DNA from: Chloroflexota bacterium
GTDB lineage: Bacteria; Chloroflexota; Dehalococcoidia; Lucifugimonadales; Australimonadaceae
Length of the DNA stretch: 41,144 bases
Reading direction: 5' to 3'
Assembly (NCBI GenBank): GCA_022561985.1
Contig: JADFQE010000009.1
Location: 1-41,144 of the forward strand
Each line of letters opens with the position of its first letter. Positions within the stretch are counted from its first letter, which is position 1. This document shows, piece by piece, positions 10,647 to 22,905 of this stretch. The notes under the pieces are model-generated. The model made no database searches. It saw nothing but the letters and a program-made list of their open reading frames with translations, and was not told where the DNA came from. A program made the position numbers and the translations under genes.

Positions 10647-11114
10647 ATGCTGCGAGTGGACTCCACCGCCCCAGACTTCACCATCCCGCTGGAATCCGGC
10701 GGCGAGTTCCGCCTGTCCGATCATCGTGGGGACCGGCACGTCATCCTCTACTTCTTCCCCAAGGCCTTCACCCGGGGCTGAATCATCGAAGCGCGTGGCT
10801 TCCGGGATTCGCATGAAGCCATCATCCAGAAGGAAGCGGTCGTCATCGGCATCAGCACCGACGGCCTCGATATCCTGCGGCGCTTCCGCGAGGTCAATGC
10901 GCTCCCGTTCCCGCTGGGCTCCGACGCCAGCCGCGCCGTGACGCGGCTCTACGACGTGCGGCGGCGGCTCAACATGGGCACCTCGCGCATCACCTACGTC
11001 GTCGACAAAGCCGGCGTGATCCGGCACGTCGCCCACAACGAGGTGTCGATGGGCTCGCATATCCACGACGCGCTCAAGACCCTCGACGCCCTCGCTGCCG
11101 AAGCGGGCGAGTAG
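10647..11114 (+). CDS. selenocysteine-containing peroxiredoxin (Bcp/AhpC-TSA family), TGA at 10779 read as Sec
   Basis: The frame from ATG 10647 to TAG 11112-11114 encodes 155 residues with one internal TGA at codon 45. Before it: VDSTAPDFTIPLESGG and HVILYFFPKAFTRG; after it: IIEARGFRDSHE, GISTDG, TSRITYVVDKAG. Bcp-type peroxiredoxins have FTPGCTxEA here, so TGA replaces exactly the peroxidatic cysteine. The usual resolving cysteine five residues later is Arg, giving a one-Sec design. Downstream, TGGCTTC (10796-10802) pairs with GAAGCCA (10815-10821) around a 12-base loop with G at its second position, 21 bases after TGA; this fits a bacterial SECIS. The enzyme would reduce H2O2 or organic peroxides in the cytoplasm. 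A nonsense mutation is possible but would have to hit the catalytic codon by chance. Sec-inserting genes are not in the window. Confidence 0.85.
10782..10821 (+). promoter_or_regulatory. candidate bSECIS element of the peroxiredoxin gene
   Basis: A perfect 7-bp stem (10796-10802 with 10815-10821) and 12-base apical loop starting CGGG, 21 bases after the TGA codon. Known bacterial SECIS hairpins place a G-containing apical loop roughly 16-37 bases after UGA. Confidence 0.65.
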
Positions 11115-15051: not shown

Positions 15052-16149
15052 ATGCCGGTAGCTACCCAATATAGGCTCCCCAAGACCGCTGCACCCAAGC
15101 TCGAGGCTCTGGTCGACGAGATCGTGGCCCGCCCCGGCGCGATGATCGACGTCAAAGAGATCCGTGCCGCGGGCGACAAGCTCGACGTCCACGACGTGGT
15201 CGATCACCTCCCGGATGGGGTGGATGAGGAAGACTTCGTCGGCATACTCAAGCTCGCGATGCTCACCGAGTCCGCGACCGACTCCTACGCCGCGGTGTTC
15301 GAGCTCGGCGCCAAGGAGTTCGACGCCCCGTGGCTCGGGCGCTTCAACCAGGACATCTGGGTGCCCGACGAGCACACGCACTACACCCCCTACATGCCGA
15401 TGCTCCTCTCCCTGGGCTTCTCCGAGGATGAGCTCGAGCGCGAGATCCGCGAGATCCGCGAGAAGCGCTACGACCACTGCTGCGGCCGCAGCCCGATCGA
15501 GCTCACCACCTACGGCGTGATCCAGGAGTACCTGACCGACAACTGGCACGGGCTCATCGCTCAGATGCTCAAGGAGCGCGCTCCCTACGCCGCCCACTGC
15601 GCCAACCTCGTGAAGCGCCGCGAGACGCTCCACACCGTCTGGTACCGGGACATGACCGCCGTGATGGTGGAGGAGAACCCGGACATGCTCGGCTTGGTCG
15701 CCGACACCATGCTCTCCTTCGAGATGCCCGGCACGAGCCTCGTCCCCCACCTCGGCGACCGTGCGTTGGAGTGGATGACCAAGCTCGATGTGAACTTCAA
15801 GCAGATCGCCCGCGACTTCGTCCGCACCTTCAGCGAGGCCGCCGGGACCATGCGCCGCAACGGCGAGCTGCTCGTCAACATCGCCGTGCGCCGCGGCTAC
15901 TCCATGGGCCCCTTCCCGCCCCAGATGGTGCAGCGCGCGCTCAACCTCCTCGGCGGACCGGGCTACGGCCTGCTGGGCGAGGCCGTCCTCGAGCGCGTCG
16001 GACTCCCGCGTCCTCCCCTCTCGCAAGAGGGGCAGAACCCGGGGATGCGCCTCTACACCGGCATCTACGACAAGATCCGGTCCAAGGCACGCACCTTCAT
16101 CTCCAGCCGCATCGACCTGCGGTCCATCACGGGCGAGACGGCGGGCTGA
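15052..16149 (+). CDS. acyl-ACP desaturase-like diiron protein
   Basis: 365 residues. Two ExxH motifs typical of ferritin-like diiron desaturases are present: Glu107-His110 in VPDEHTHYTPY, and Glu191-His194 in RRETLHTVWY. Glu74 (LTESATDSY) and Glu159 (VIQEYLTDNW) are candidates for the remaining ligands. The family inserts double bonds into acyl chains using O2 and reduced ferredoxin. It is soluble, not membrane-bound. The next gene, 31 bases on, is cyclopropane fatty acid synthase, which modifies such double bonds, so a lipid-tailoring unit is likely. The match is at fold and motif level; chain length and position are unknown. Confidence 0.85.
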   Translation: MPVATQYRLPKTAAPKLEALVDEIVARPGAMIDVKEIRAAGDKLDVHDVVDHLPDGVDEEDFVGILKLAMLTESATDSYAAVFELGAKEFDAPWLGRFNQDIWVPDEHTHYTPYMPMLLSLGFSEDELEREIREIREKRYDHCCGRSPIELTTYGVIQEYLTDNWHGLIAQMLKERAPYAAHCANLVKRRETLHTVWYRDMTAVMVEENPDMLGLVADTMLSFEMPGTSLVPHLGDRALEWMTKLDVNFKQIARDFVRTFSEAAGTMRRNGELLVNIAVRRGYSMGPFPPQMVQRALNLLGGPGYGLLGEAVLERVGLPRPPLSQEGQNPGMRLYTGIYDKIRSKARTFISSRIDLRSITGETAG

Positions 16150-16180: not shown

Positions 16181-17398
16181 ATGATCAACGGACCCATCGC
16201 CTGGGCGGCTGACTCCCTCGCCCGTTGGGCTTTCACGAAAGCCGTGCGCCAGCTCCGCGTTGGCAGCCTCGTCATCGAGACTCCGCACGGCCCGGACGTG
16301 GAGGTCCACGGGGCCCGGCCCGGGCCGGACGCCGTCCTGCGCGTGAACGACCCCTCGTTCTACCGGCGGTTCCTCCTCCACGGCGAGATCGGCTTCGGCG
16401 AGGCCTACCAGGGCGGGCTGTGCGACTCGCCGGACCTCGTGGCGCTGCTCCAGCTCGCCCTCGCCAACCGGGAGGCCATCGACTTCAACAGGGGTCCGCT
16501 CCGGCTGCTCTCACGGCTCAAGGACCGCAAGCTCCACGAGGGCCGCGACAACACGGAGGAGCACAGCCGCGACAACATCCACGCCCACTACGACCTGGGC
16601 AACGACTTCTTCAGCCTCTTCTTGGACGAGACCATGACCTATTCGTCCGCCGTGTTCGAGGAGCCGGACCAGCCGCTCCCCGACGCCCAGCGGAACAAGT
16701 ACCGCCTCATCTGCGAGGCGGCCAAGCTCACCGCGGACGACCACGTGCTGGAGATCGGGACGGGGTGGGGCGGCTTCGCCATCCACGCCGCGGGCACCTA
16801 CGGCGCCAAGGTGACCAGCATCACCATCTCCAAGGAGCAGTACACCCTCGCACGGCGCCGGGTGGCCGACGCGGGCCTCTCCGACCTCGTCGACGTGCAG
16901 CTGACCGACTACCGCGACGCCGTCGGCACCTACGACAAGATCGTCTCCATCGAGATGTTCGAGGCCGTCGGCGCCGAGTACTTCGAGACCTTCTTCGCCA
17001 AGTGCGCCTCGCTGCTCAAGCCGGGCGGGCGCCTCACGATGCAGGTCATCACCGTGCCCGATGCCACCTACGAGGCCCAGCGCACCGGCGTCAACTGGAT
17101 CCAGAAGTACATCTTCCCCGGCGGCGTGCTGCCGTCCACCGAGCAGATGGAGCGCTCCAGCGCACCGGCCGGGCTCAAGGTCTCCGCCGTCCACGACATC
17201 GGCCCCGACTACGCCGCGACGCTGCGTGTGTGGCGGCGCACCTTCTGGGAGCGCATCGACGACGTGCGGGCACAGGGGTACGACGAGTGGTTCATCCGGA
17301 CGTGGGACTACTACCTCGCGGGCTCCGAGGCCGGCTTCTCGACACGCACCTTCAGCGACGTTCAGATCGTCTTCGACAAGGCCGCGCGAACCCCCTAG
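16181..17398 (+). CDS. cfa: cyclopropane-fatty-acyl-phospholipid synthase
   Basis: 405 residues from ATG 16181, full length for the family. The N-terminal substrate domain is followed by the signature HYDLGNDFFSLFLDETMTYS, then the SAM-binding loop VLEIGTGWGGFA (189-200), and the catalytic-region motif SIEMFEAVG. The enzyme uses S-adenosylmethionine to add a methylene bridge across a double bond in membrane phospholipid acyl chains. It follows the desaturase-like gene that would make the double bond. The OsmC-like selenoprotein starts 17 bases after its stop. Confidence 0.96.
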   Translation: MINGPIAWAADSLARWAFTKAVRQLRVGSLVIETPHGPDVEVHGARPGPDAVLRVNDPSFYRRFLLHGEIGFGEAYQGGLCDSPDLVALLQLALANREAIDFNRGPLRLLSRLKDRKLHEGRDNTEEHSRDNIHAHYDLGNDFFSLFLDETMTYSSAVFEEPDQPLPDAQRNKYRLICEAAKLTADDHVLEIGTGWGGFAIHAAGTYGAKVTSITISKEQYTLARRRVADAGLSDLVDVQLTDYRDAVGTYDKIVSIEMFEAVGAEYFETFFAKCASLLKPGGRLTMQVITVPDATYEAQRTGVNWIQKYIFPGGVLPSTEQMERSSAPAGLKVSAVHDIGPDYAATLRVWRRTFWERIDDVRAQGYDEWFIRTWDYYLAGSEAGFSTRTFSDVQIVFDKAARTP

Positions 17399-17415
17399 CG
17401 CTTCAGGAGCATGCA

Positions 17416-17937
17416 ATGACCACGAGCGCGTCCCAGGAGTTCCCGGAAGCCCGCCGCGTCATCACCATCGAGACCGACGCCAAGACGATGGAGAAGATGC
17501 GGAAGGAGGGCGTCACCGAGGACGGCTTCACCGTGTACTGCGACGAGGCCGAGCGCCTCGGCGGAGACAACTCGGCGCCCTCGCCCATGCGCTACCTCTC
17601 CCTGTCCCTCGGCTTCTGACTGCTCACCCAGGTCGTCCGGTACGGACACATGATGAAGGTGGACATCACCAGCGCCCGGGTGCACGTGAGCGTGCGGTTC
17701 ACGCGCGAAGGCTCCGTGCTCGCCCAGACCATCCGCGCCGGCGCCGAGGGCATCGAGACCCGGCTCGAGGTCGAGTCGCCGGACGAGCCGGGAACGGTCG
17801 CGGGCGTCGTCCGCAACGCCGAGAACGGCTGCTACGTCATGCAGGCGCTGGCGAGCCCGACCCCCGTGGCCACCTCCGTCGCCCTCAACGGCGCCGAGCT
17901 CGACCTGACCGCCTACCCGCCCCCAACCCGCGACTAG
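17416..17937 (+). CDS. selenocysteine-containing OsmC-family peroxidase, TGA at 17617 read as Sec
   Basis: From ATG 17416 (AGGAG upstream) one frame runs to TAG 17935-17937, 173 residues, with a single TGA at codon 68. Left of it: FTVYCDEAERLGGDNSAPSP and LSLSLGF; right of it: LLTQVVRYGHMMKVD, then VRNAENGCYVMQAL. OsmC proteins have a catalytic cysteine in this GFC-LLT context and a second one in the later GC motif, here Cys139. The TGA thus matches the first catalytic cysteine, giving a Sec68/Cys139 pair. A hairpin (17635-17647) follows at SECIS distance. The enzyme would reduce organic hydroperoxides. It follows the desaturase and cfa genes closely, so lipid peroxides are a plausible substrate. 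A two-gene reading (67 and 95 residues) is less likely, as each half lacks part of the fold. Confidence 0.85.
17620..17647 (+). promoter_or_regulatory. candidate bSECIS element of the OsmC gene
   Basis: GTCCG (17635-17639) pairs with CGGAC (17643-17647) around a GTA loop; GT/AC extends the stem past a bulged C. The loop starts 20 bases after TGA, almost the same spacing as in the peroxiredoxin gene. Confidence 0.6.
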
Positions 17938-18022: not shown

Positions 18023-18106
18023 CTACCACATGGTGTTTCGGGCGCGATCTCCTTACAATATCTTGTGTCTAGCCTCTTGACACCCGCTACGCAGAGCGCC
18101 CATACT
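18023..18106 (+). promoter_or_regulatory. nrdA control region: two putative NrdR boxes and a promoter
   Basis: TTACAATATCTTGTGT (18053-18068) is close to the NrdR-box consensus; a weaker match, CTACCACATGGTGTTT, starts at 18023, exactly 30 bases earlier, the usual spacing for NrdR pairs. A promoter follows: TTGACA (18077-18082) and CATACT (18101-18106). NrdR represses nrd genes when dATP is plentiful. Confidence 0.6.
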
Positions 18107-18162
18107 TGCGCTCCGCCGCGCAGCCGATGCAGCACGGCGGACGACCGTTCCGGAGGGTTCCG

Positions 18163-20625
18163 ATGACCACTACGCCCCTGGCCCCAGGAAGCGTCAGCGA
18201 CGACGGCGGTGTGCTGGCCGCACCCGCGGCCATGCAGATCCGCAAGCGCAACGGCGGTCTGGAGACCGCCGACGTCATGAAGATCGTGCGCGCGGTGGAG
18301 CGCTCCGCCGGCGGTCTCGACGACGTGGACCCGCTGCGCGTCGCCACGCGCACCATCAGCGGCCTCTACGACGGCGCGACCACCCGCGAGCTCGACGAGC
18401 TGTCCATCCGGACGGCCGCGTCGCTCATCGCCGAGGAGCCCGAGTACTCGAAGCTGGCGGCACGCCTCCTCGGCGTCTTCGTCGACAAGGAGGTCCACAA
18501 CCAGGACATCCAGTCCTTCTCCCAGTCGGTGAAGTCCGGGCACACCCTCGGCCTCATGGACGACCAGGTGGCGGGCTTCGTCGCCGACAACGCCCGGAAG
18601 CTCAACGACGCGATCGTGCCCGAGCGCAACACGCTCTTCGAGTACTTCGGCATCCGGACCCTCTATGACCGCTACCTGCTGAAGCACCCGGAGACCCGGT
18701 ACTCCATCGAGACGCCGCAGCACTTCTTCCTGCGCGTCGCCTGCGGGCTCACCGAGTCGCCCTCAGAAGCCATCGAGCTCTACGACCTGATGTCGCAGAT
18801 GGACTACATGCCCAGCTCCCCGACGCTGTTCAACTCCGGCACGCGGCACCCGCAGATGTCCTCGTGCTACCTGCTCGACTCGCCCCAGGACGACCTGGAG
18901 TCCATCTACAACCGCTACACGGACATCGCCAAGCTCTCCAAGTACGCCGGGGGCATCGGCGTGTCCTTCTCGCGCGTCCGCTCGCGCGGCTCCCTCATCC
19001 GCGGCACCAACGGCAAGTCCAACGGCATCGTGCCCTGGCTCAAGACCCTCGACTCCTCCGTCGCCGCCGTGAACCAGGGCGGCAAGCGCAAGGGCGCGGC
19101 GTGCGTCTACGTCGAGACGTGGCACGCGGACATCGAGGAGTTCCTCGAGATGCGCGACAACACCGGCGACGAGGCGCGCCGGGCGCACAACCTGAACCTC
19201 GCCAACTGGGTGCCTGATCTGTTCATGCGCCGGGTCGAAGAGGACGCCGTCTGGTCGCTGTTCGACCCCAAGGTGCTCCCGGAGCTCGTCGACACCTACG
19301 GCGAGACCTTCGAGCGCATCTACCTCGAGGCCGAGGCGGAGGGGCGCTTCGAGCGCCAGCTCCCGGCCCGCGAGCTCTACGCCCGGATGATGCGCACCCT
19401 CGCGCAGACCGGCAACGGCTGGATGACCTTCAAGGACCCCTCGAACGCGAAGTCGAGCCAGACGCTCAAGCCCGAGAACGTCATCCACCTCTCGAACCTG
19501 TGCACGGAGATCCTGGAGGTCACCTCGGCGGACGAGACGGCGGTGTGCAACCTCGGCTCGATCAACCTCGGCCACTTCATCATGGACGACGAGGCCGGCT
19601 TCGACTTCGAGCGGCTCGGCCGGGTGGTCCGCACGGCCGTGCGCTACCTCGACCGCGTGGTCGACATCAACTTCTACCCGACCGGCGCGTCGGGACACTC
19701 CAACGCGCGCTGGCGGCCGGTGGGACTCGGCATCATGGGCCTCCAGGACGTGTTCTTCCAGCTGCGGATGCCCTTCGACTCCGAGGCCGCACGGACGCTT
19801 GCGGCCCGCATCCAAGAGGAGATCTACTTCTGGGCGCTGACCACGTCCAACGAGCTCGCCGAGGCCCACGGCCCCCACGAGACCTTCGCCGACACGCGCG
19901 CCGCGCAAGGCGACCTCCAGTTCGACCTCTGGGGCATCACGCCCACCAAGCCCGCGTGGGGAGAGCTCAAGGAGCGCATCGCCCAGTACGGGCTGCGCAA
20001 CTCGCTGCTCATCGCCATCGCCCCGACGGCCACCATCGCGTCCATCTGCGGCGCGTACGAGTGCATCGAGCCCCAGGTCTCCAACCTGTTCAAGCGGGAG
20101 ACGCTCTCCGGGGAGTTCCTCCAGATCAACAACTACCTGGTGCGCGACCTCAAGGAGCGCGGGCTGTGGACCGAGGAGGTCCGCACGAAGATCAAGCTGA
20201 ACGAGGGGGCCATCGCGGATATCGAGGAGATCCCCCAGGGCCTGCGCGACCTCTACCGGACGGCGTGGGAGCTGCCGCAGAAGGCACTCATCGACATGGC
20301 CGCCGCGCGCGGGCCGTACATCGACCAGTCCCAGTCGCTGAACCTGTTCATGGCCTCGCCGACCATCGGCAAGCTCTCGTCCATGTACCTCTACGCGTGG
20401 AAGAGCGGGCTGAAGACGACCTACTACCTGCGCTCGCGCCCGGCCACGCGCATCATGCAGACCACCACGGCAGCGCAGCCCGCCACGAGCACGGCCACGG
20501 CCGAGGACACAGCCCCCGCGGCCCCCACGGCTCCCACAGGAGCGACCGCGATCGTGGAGCTGACGGACGCCGAAGCCATCGCCTGCTCGCTGGAGAACCC
20601 AGAGGAGTGCGAAGCCTGCCAGTAG
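18163..20625 (+). CDS. nrdA: ribonucleoside-diphosphate reductase class I, alpha subunit
   Basis: 820 residues from ATG 18163 with GGAGGG upstream; a longer frame begins at 18106 but overlaps the promoter. An ATP-cone near residues 24-110 (MQIRKRNGG, VMKIVRAVE) allows dATP control. The catalytic domain has SSCYLLD (redox Cys), NLCTEILEV (radical Cys between Asn and Glu), VCNLGSINL (second redox Cys), and PTATIASICGAYECIEP. The radical-transfer tyrosines lie in KSGLKTTYYLR. The Ala/Thr/Pro linker and terminal CSLENPEECEACQ carry the cysteines reduced by thioredoxin or glutaredoxin. The partner nrdB is 1.3 kb downstream on the same strand, with three small genes between. Confidence 0.98.
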   Translation: MTTTPLAPGSVSDDGGVLAAPAAMQIRKRNGGLETADVMKIVRAVERSAGGLDDVDPLRVATRTISGLYDGATTRELDELSIRTAASLIAEEPEYSKLAARLLGVFVDKEVHNQDIQSFSQSVKSGHTLGLMDDQVAGFVADNARKLNDAIVPERNTLFEYFGIRTLYDRYLLKHPETRYSIETPQHFFLRVACGLTESPSEAIELYDLMSQMDYMPSSPTLFNSGTRHPQMSSCYLLDSPQDDLESIYNRYTDIAKLSKYAGGIGVSFSRVRSRGSLIRGTNGKSNGIVPWLKTLDSSVAAVNQGGKRKGAACVYVETWHADIEEFLEMRDNTGDEARRAHNLNLANWVPDLFMRRVEEDAVWSLFDPKVLPELVDTYGETFERIYLEAEAEGRFERQLPARELYARMMRTLAQTGNGWMTFKDPSNAKSSQTLKPENVIHLSNLCTEILEVTSADETAVCNLGSINLGHFIMDDEAGFDFERLGRVVRTAVRYLDRVVDINFYPTGASGHSNARWRPVGLGIMGLQDVFFQLRMPFDSEAARTLAARIQEEIYFWALTTSNELAEAHGPHETFADTRAAQGDLQFDLWGITPTKPAWGELKERIAQYGLRNSLLIAIAPTATIASICGAYECIEPQVSNLFKRETLSGEFLQINNYLVRDLKERGLWTEEVRTKIKLNEGAIADIEEIPQGLRDLYRTAWELPQKALIDMAAARGPYIDQSQSLNLFMASPTIGKLSSMYLYAWKSGLKTTYYLRSRPATRIMQTTTAAQPATSTATAEDTAPAAPTAPTGATAIVELTDAEAIACSLENPEECEACQ

Positions 20626-21903: not shown

Positions 21904-22905
21904 ATGGCGATCCTCGACCCCGGCATGGACCTCACGCTGCGCCCCATGCGGTACCCCGAGTTCTACGAGATGTACAAGAACGGGATCCGCAACACGTGGA
22001 CGGTCGACGAGGTCGACTTCTCCGACGACATCAAGGACCTCCAGCAGAAGCTCACGGAGCCCGAGCGGCACCTGGTCCGGCGGCTCGTCGCATTCTTCGC
22101 GACAGGCGACGCCATCGTCGCCAACAACCTGGTGCTCAACCTCTACAAGCACCTCAACTCGCCGGAGGCGCGCCTCTACCTCTCCCGCCAGCTCTTCGAG
22201 GAGGCCGTGCACATCCAGTTCTACCTGACGCTGCTCGACACCTACATCCCGGACATCGACGAGCGCGCCGAGATGTTCCGCGCGGTGGAGACCGTGCCGT
22301 CGATCCAGCGCAAGGCGGACTTCTGCTTCCGCTGGCTCGACTCGATCCACGACCTGGACAGGCTCGAGACCGACGAGCACCGACGCAAGTTCCTGCTGAA
22401 CCTCATCTGCTACGCCACCTGCGTCGAAGGCCTCTTCTTCTACGCGGCCTTCGCCTACGTCTACTTCATGCGCTCCAAGGGGCTCCTGAACGGCCTCGCC
22501 TCCGGCACGAACTGGGTCTTCCGGGACGAGAGCGCCCACATGACCTTCGCGCTCGCCGCCGTGCGGACCACGCGCGCCGAGTACCCGCACCTCTTCGACG
22601 AGGCGCTCGAGCGGCAGGTCGGCGAGATGATGGACGACGCCCTGGACTGCGAGACGCAGTTCGCCGAGGACCTGCTGAGCGGCTCCGTTGCCGGCCTCAC
22701 CGTCAAGGAGATCCGCGAATACCTCGAGAACGTCGCCGACCAGCGGCTCGTGAACCTGGGCATGGCCAAGCGCTACGGCACGCGCAACCCGCTCACGTTC
22801 ATGGAACTCCAGGACGTGCAGGAGCTCTCCAACTTCTTCGAGCGCCGCGTCTCCGCCTACCAGACGGCCGTCACGGGCCAGGTCACCTTCGACGAGAGCT
22901 TCTGA
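21904..22905 (+). CDS. nrdB: ribonucleoside-diphosphate reductase class I, beta subunit
   Basis: 333 residues. Iron ligands are visible as Asp69 (FATGDAIVANN), Glu100 and His103 (FEEAVHIQFY), Glu175 (CVEGLFFY), Glu209 and His212 (RDESAHMTF). Tyr107, four residues after His103, matches the radical tyrosine of class Ia enzymes. The C-terminus VTGQVTFDESF resembles the peptide that docks onto NrdA. Together with NrdA it makes deoxynucleotides under oxygen. Metal choice (Fe or Mn) cannot be read. Confidence 0.97.
   Translation: MAILDPGMDLTLRPMRYPEFYEMYKNGIRNTWTVDEVDFSDDIKDLQQKLTEPERHLVRRLVAFFATGDAIVANNLVLNLYKHLNSPEARLYLSRQLFEEAVHIQFYLTLLDTYIPDIDERAEMFRAVETVPSIQRKADFCFRWLDSIHDLDRLETDEHRRKFLLNLICYATCVEGLFFYAAFAYVYFMRSKGLLNGLASGTNWVFRDESAHMTFALAAVRTTRAEYPHLFDEALERQVGEMMDDALDCETQFAEDLLSGSVAGLTVKEIREYLENVADQRLVNLGMAKRYGTRNPLTFMELQDVQELSNFFERRVSAYQTAVTGQVTFDESF

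Follow-up and report, generated by a model that had tools for sequence, protein, structure and literature searches.

Does an in-frame TGA separate two small genes, or does it encode selenocysteine within a single one? This question is raised by a locus in the 41,144-nucleotide stretch of DNA that we analysed (the window), which belongs to a Dehalococcoidia (Chloroflexota) MAG. Standard annotation places two ORFs at the locus, one ending at 17619 and the other covering 17650-17937. A sequence-only reading of the window had instead seen one OsmC-family peroxidase, with TGA at the first catalytic cysteine, the second cysteine retained and a hairpin 20 bases downstream, and had taken the desaturase-like and cfa genes that precede it to point to lipid hydroperoxides. 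Our analysis indicates, with little room for doubt, one selenoprotein gene of the OsmC-related (YhfA/COG1765-like, UxxT) family, in which UGA would be read as selenocysteine and Sec68 and Cys139 would form a redox pair. The peroxidase assignment and the lipid substrate fared less well, as discussed below. The features of the locus and the selenocysteine machinery of the genome are listed in Table 1.

Table 1. Features of the OsmC-related locus (window coordinates) and selenocysteine genes of the same genome (contigs).
Feature	Location	Strand	Evidence
FA_desaturase_2-like protein, further upstream	15052..16149	+	PF03405 2.6e-6, weak (27 bits against a cut-off of 22.7)
Cyclopropane-fatty-acid-synthase family methyltransferase (cfa), upstream neighbour	16181..17398	+	PF02353 1.6e-87
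AGGAG, Shine-Dalgarno-like, 6 nt before ATG 17416	17405..17409	+	Sequence
Predicted OsmC-related selenoprotein gene, Sec68 (TGA) and Cys139, stop TAG	17416..17937	+	Translation; Pfam OsmC; NCBIfam NF041052; 34 further UGA homologues
In-frame TGA, predicted Sec68, motif U-L-L-T	17617..17619	+	TGA in the same column in 17 UGA rows of the alignment; Cys in L039; UxxT as in PMC1088965 and PMC2398784
Bacterial SECIS-like hairpin, GUCCG-GUA-CGGAC	17635..17647	+	Folding position and compensatory changes
Cys139 codon TGC, second conserved active-site cysteine	17830..17832	+	Invariant in 18/18 rows of the family alignment
selA	C18		2.4e-127
selB	C69		335.5 bits
tRNA-Sec (selC), anticodon TCA	C82		68.2 bits and ARAGORN
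selD	C37		390 bits

A single reading frame across the TGA

Once the TGA is read through, translation yields a single ORF of 173 residues with an OsmC fold, which ends with the TAG at 17935-17937. In the full read-through product, residues 50-153 match Pfam OsmC (4.2e-15). The half that follows the TGA matches the same family on its own at 2.6e-7, and the half that precedes it gave no Pfam match on its own. As the match of the full product spans the TGA, the two apparent small ORFs are better read as parts of one OsmC protein. Nucleotide differences from two congeners, counted by codon position, amount to 6/4/11 and 7/5/13 before the TGA, and to 6/8/20 and 4/7/18 after it. The third-position bias of the changes persists past the TGA and, by this measure, the second half of the frame is under coding constraint.

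Conservation of the TGA among relatives

We searched 39 related genomes, then extracted and aligned 17 loci with TGA at the same place, which lie in 14 genomes of the same order (including the genome studied here). In the resulting 18-row alignment, the residue 68 column (U or C) and the Cys139 column are both invariant. A wider search of 84,980 species genomes with a 6-row alignment led to 27 loci being fetched, 24 of which carry the TGA. The 27 loci come mostly from Dehalococcoidia and Candidatus Binatia (in 'Deltaproteobacteria' records), and also from Acidimicrobiales and one Pseudomonadales MAG. Two loci were left unscored: L066, as its frame is broken in the record, and L069, which is cut by a contig end. 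L066 is an OsmC-related locus in a Binatia-type MAG that loses its frame shortly before the Sec codon, through either a sequencing error or pseudogenization. Phage records were also searched, and gave no hits.

After removal of duplicates, 35 distinct loci with U were left (17 from the same order and 18 from other records), which are distributed over several phyla. All 35 have the sequence context U-x-x-[TS]-Q, and none of them has TAA or TAG at the Sec68 codon. A few relatives carry Cys at this position, among them the paralogue L039 in the same genome and L067 of Pseudovibrio axinellae. The TGA column thus matches the Cys of L039, as well as that of the solved structure 3cje_A, which places the TGA at the first catalytic cysteine. 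An in-frame UGA that is conserved as UGA or as a Cys codon in homologues is one of the patterns by which bacterial selenoproteins are recognised. No relative was found in which the two halves are separate genes. With the TGA conserved among relatives, Cys139 kept and sel genes present in the genome, the Sec68/Cys139 pair proposed from the sequence alone has gained support.

A second OsmC-related selenoprotein is predicted in the same genome (L038 1501-1923; G000:C64:6913-7335). It is 29% identical to the first, has TGA in the same column and a GGUAC hairpin, and passes NF041052 with 139.1 bits. Two related genomes, G006 and G011, likewise have two OsmC-related selenoprotein copies each.

A SECIS-like hairpin downstream of the TGA

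The hairpin that had been noticed downstream of the TGA is present, and compensatory changes in relatives preserve its pairing. Its stem is formed by 17635-17639 and 17643-17647, and its loop (17640-17642) starts 20 nt past the UGA. The bacterial SECIS model, in the form that PMC13188914 quotes, has the loop 16-37 nt past the UGA and a G in the first loop positions. The 20-nt distance and the GUA loop closed by G-C fit this model, and the energy of the 30-nt fold (-7.4 kcal/mol) is borderline relative to the published limit of -7.5. Across the eight members of the hairpin's structural class, 91.7% of cells are paired, a value reached by 0 of 500 shuffles (73.6 ± 3.9), while slid partners gave at most 47.9%. 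Both sides have changed in three of the six hairpin pairs. A second class of relatives has a hairpin in the corresponding position; its loop is GGYU, and its pairing register is shifted by one base. The single-sequence folding energy is no better than that of shuffles (z 0.49), in DNA that is GC-rich; as folding energy alone gives no support, the case for the hairpin is made by covariation. An Rfam scan of the window at gathering thresholds returned tRNAs only.

Selenocysteine machinery and other predicted selenoproteins

All four genes sought for selenocysteine incorporation, selA, selB, selC and selD, were found in the genome (Table 1), with selB apparently split across contig ends in the MAG (C69 and C109). 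The selD gene (L042; G000:C37:6788-7708, minus strand) has a TGA near its start, in the motif SCAGU, which makes it probable that selenophosphate synthetase, too, contains selenocysteine here. Such selenocysteine-containing versions of SelD are known elsewhere. A scan of the window for coding-like frames interrupted by TGA found just two, the OsmC-related gene and a gene at 10647-11114 on the forward strand for a peroxiredoxin (AhpC-TSA 7.5e-31), the other predicted selenoprotein of the window. The TGA of the latter (10779-10781) lies at the peroxidatic position in the motif FTRGU, which is of the TxxU type known since 2005.

These observations bear on two other ways to account for the TGA. 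The TGA at 17617 could be a genuine stop, which either divides two distinct small genes or reflects a pseudogene or a sequencing error, as the two annotated ORFs would suggest. This explanation is ruled out by the recurrence of the same TGA, never as TAA or TAG, in the 35 loci, and we give it next to no credence. Constraint on both sides of the TGA, the conserved hairpin and the full sel set also argue against it, and a product starting at 17650 would be without the first strand and the catalytic helix of the AlphaFold2 model. A change of the genetic code can likewise put TGA inside a gene, and in this lineage the codon might have taken on a new meaning, such as Trp or Gly. We rejected this scenario, which is barely conceivable, as both of the TGA-interrupted frames in the window encode redox proteins with the TGA at the peroxidatic Cys position. 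In addition, the genome has a tRNA-Sec with the anticodon TCA, and no TGA was seen at conserved Trp or Gly codons in the 41-kb window.

Under the selenoprotein reading, the SECIS hairpin just past the UGA would recruit SelB with Sec-tRNA(Sec), and the UGA would be decoded as selenocysteine; we infer this incorporation from the conserved UGA, the hairpin and the sel genes. In the OsmC fold, Sec68 would then stand where the peroxidatic Cys is otherwise found, and Cys139 would correspond to the resolving Cys. The fold and the invariant residues suggest that the protein is most likely a two-residue selenol/thiol redox enzyme that works through a Sec68-Cys139 selenenylsulfide.

Active site, neighbouring genes and function

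The AlphaFold2 model (mean pLDDT 75.9) matches OsmC/Ohr structures, with low confidence in its N-terminal part, the region where the catalytic Arg loop of Ohr/OsmC proteins would lie. Catalysis by Ohr involves Cp together with Arg19 and Glu51 (PMC5962072). The position of the triad Glu, ten residues before Cp, is Met58 in the protein studied here. It is Met or Leu in every member of the Sec family, and Glu in L001, the canonical Cys-containing OsmC of the same genome. The subfamily models TIGR03561 (Ohr) and TIGR03562 (OsmC) gave no match at E <= 0.1, whereas L001 passes TIGR03562. According to published reports, the YhfA branch is without the Arg and the Glu, and biochemically uncharacterised (PMC8945050; PMC4069020).

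The cfa gene ends 17 nt before the OsmC-related gene, and the two are probably co-transcribed. Of the two upstream genes named in the sequence-only reading, cfa is clearly identified, while the match of the desaturase-like gene to FA_desaturase_2 is weak. To assess the neighbourhood, we compared the neighbours with the fetched loci by tblastn (flanks of 1.5-4 kb); cfa and the desaturase-like gene adjoin the OsmC-related gene in two congeneric genomes only. As they were found alongside it only in these two congeners, the neighbourhood is weak functional evidence. Downstream, the forward-strand ORFs at 18106-20625 and 21904-22905 resemble, by eye, the large and small subunits of ribonucleotide reductase, and a putative large subunit also adjoins the OsmC-related gene in the congeners.

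Could the protein be a Sec-containing peroxidase of the Ohr/OsmC type, which reduces organic (lipid) hydroperoxides and acts on membrane lipids together with cfa and the desaturase? The OsmC fold, a pair of redox residues placed as in Ohr and the close spacing of cfa, kept in two congeneric genomes, are in line with this. However, the missing triad Glu, the reported lack of Arg and Glu in the YhfA branch, the unmatched Ohr and OsmC models and the adjacency of the lipid genes in the genus alone speak against it, and we consider this reading rather unlikely. Organic hydroperoxide reduction by the predicted selenoprotein is possible but not indicated, as the protein lacks the triad Glu of Ohr and OsmC. 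Similarly, as the neighbourhood with cfa and the desaturase-like gene is confined to its own genus, a lipid-hydroperoxide substrate is a guess. The term peroxidase is not supported for a protein of the YhfA-like/COG1765 branch that lacks the catalytic Glu and matches neither NCBIfam model, nor is the suggestion of lipid hydroperoxides, as cfa and the desaturase-like gene were not found alongside it outside the genus. A more speculative idea, which we regard as improbable, is that the YhfA-like Sec branch has a separate redox activity that uses the reactivity of selenocysteine instead of the triad (with Glu, and perhaps Arg, missing), and that in this genus it may protect or repair membrane lipids that have been cyclopropanated or desaturated, by way of the operon it would share with cfa.

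Relation to known families

The original placement in the OsmC family is correct at the level of the fold and of Pfam. NCBIfam NF041052, 'OsmC-related (seleno)protein', matches with an E-value of 1.8e-50 and a score of 170.6 bits, well over its cut-off of 95, with residues 17-159 aligned to positions 1-144 of the 144-position profile, and the UxxT redox motif of OsmC-like selenoproteins is present as U68-L-L-T71. OsmC-like selenoproteins with UxxT were described from the Sargasso Sea in 2005 by Zhang, Fomenko and Gladyshev (PMC1088965) and reported again in the GOS survey of 2008 (PMC2398784), and a 2022 review has them under COG1765 (YhfA), with the motif UxxT (PMC9312934). As these reports exist and the NCBIfam model is passed, the protein, judged from its sequence, belongs to the OsmC-related selenoprotein family (YhfA/COG1765-like, UxxT). 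This kind is not new but has been known since 2005. The family gains a well-supported case in Chloroflexota and relatives in Candidatus Binatia. For annotation, the locus illustrates that standard gene callers split or truncate the OsmC-related selenoprotein gene. The branch, in which nearly all members retain Sec but the triad Glu of Ohr is absent, is also a fair target for biochemistry.

With the Ohr (TIGR03561) and OsmC (TIGR03562) peroxiredoxins, the OsmC-related protein shares its fold as well as both redox positions (Cp and Cr). It differs from them in that Sec replaces Cp, the triad Glu is absent and neither subfamily model matches. Among solved structures, the best match is 3cje_A (2.7e-9), the OsmC-like protein Jann_2040 of Jannaschia sp. 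CCS1 from structural genomics, which has Cys at both redox positions and hence Cys where the OsmC-related protein has Sec. The closest counterpart is the NF041052 OsmC_like_Se/COG1765-YhfA UxxT family, with which it shares the OsmC fold, a first active-site position predicted to be Sec, the UxxT motif and a SECIS-like element after the UGA, and from which it differs only in its host, a Dehalococcoidia genus, and in its neighbouring genes.
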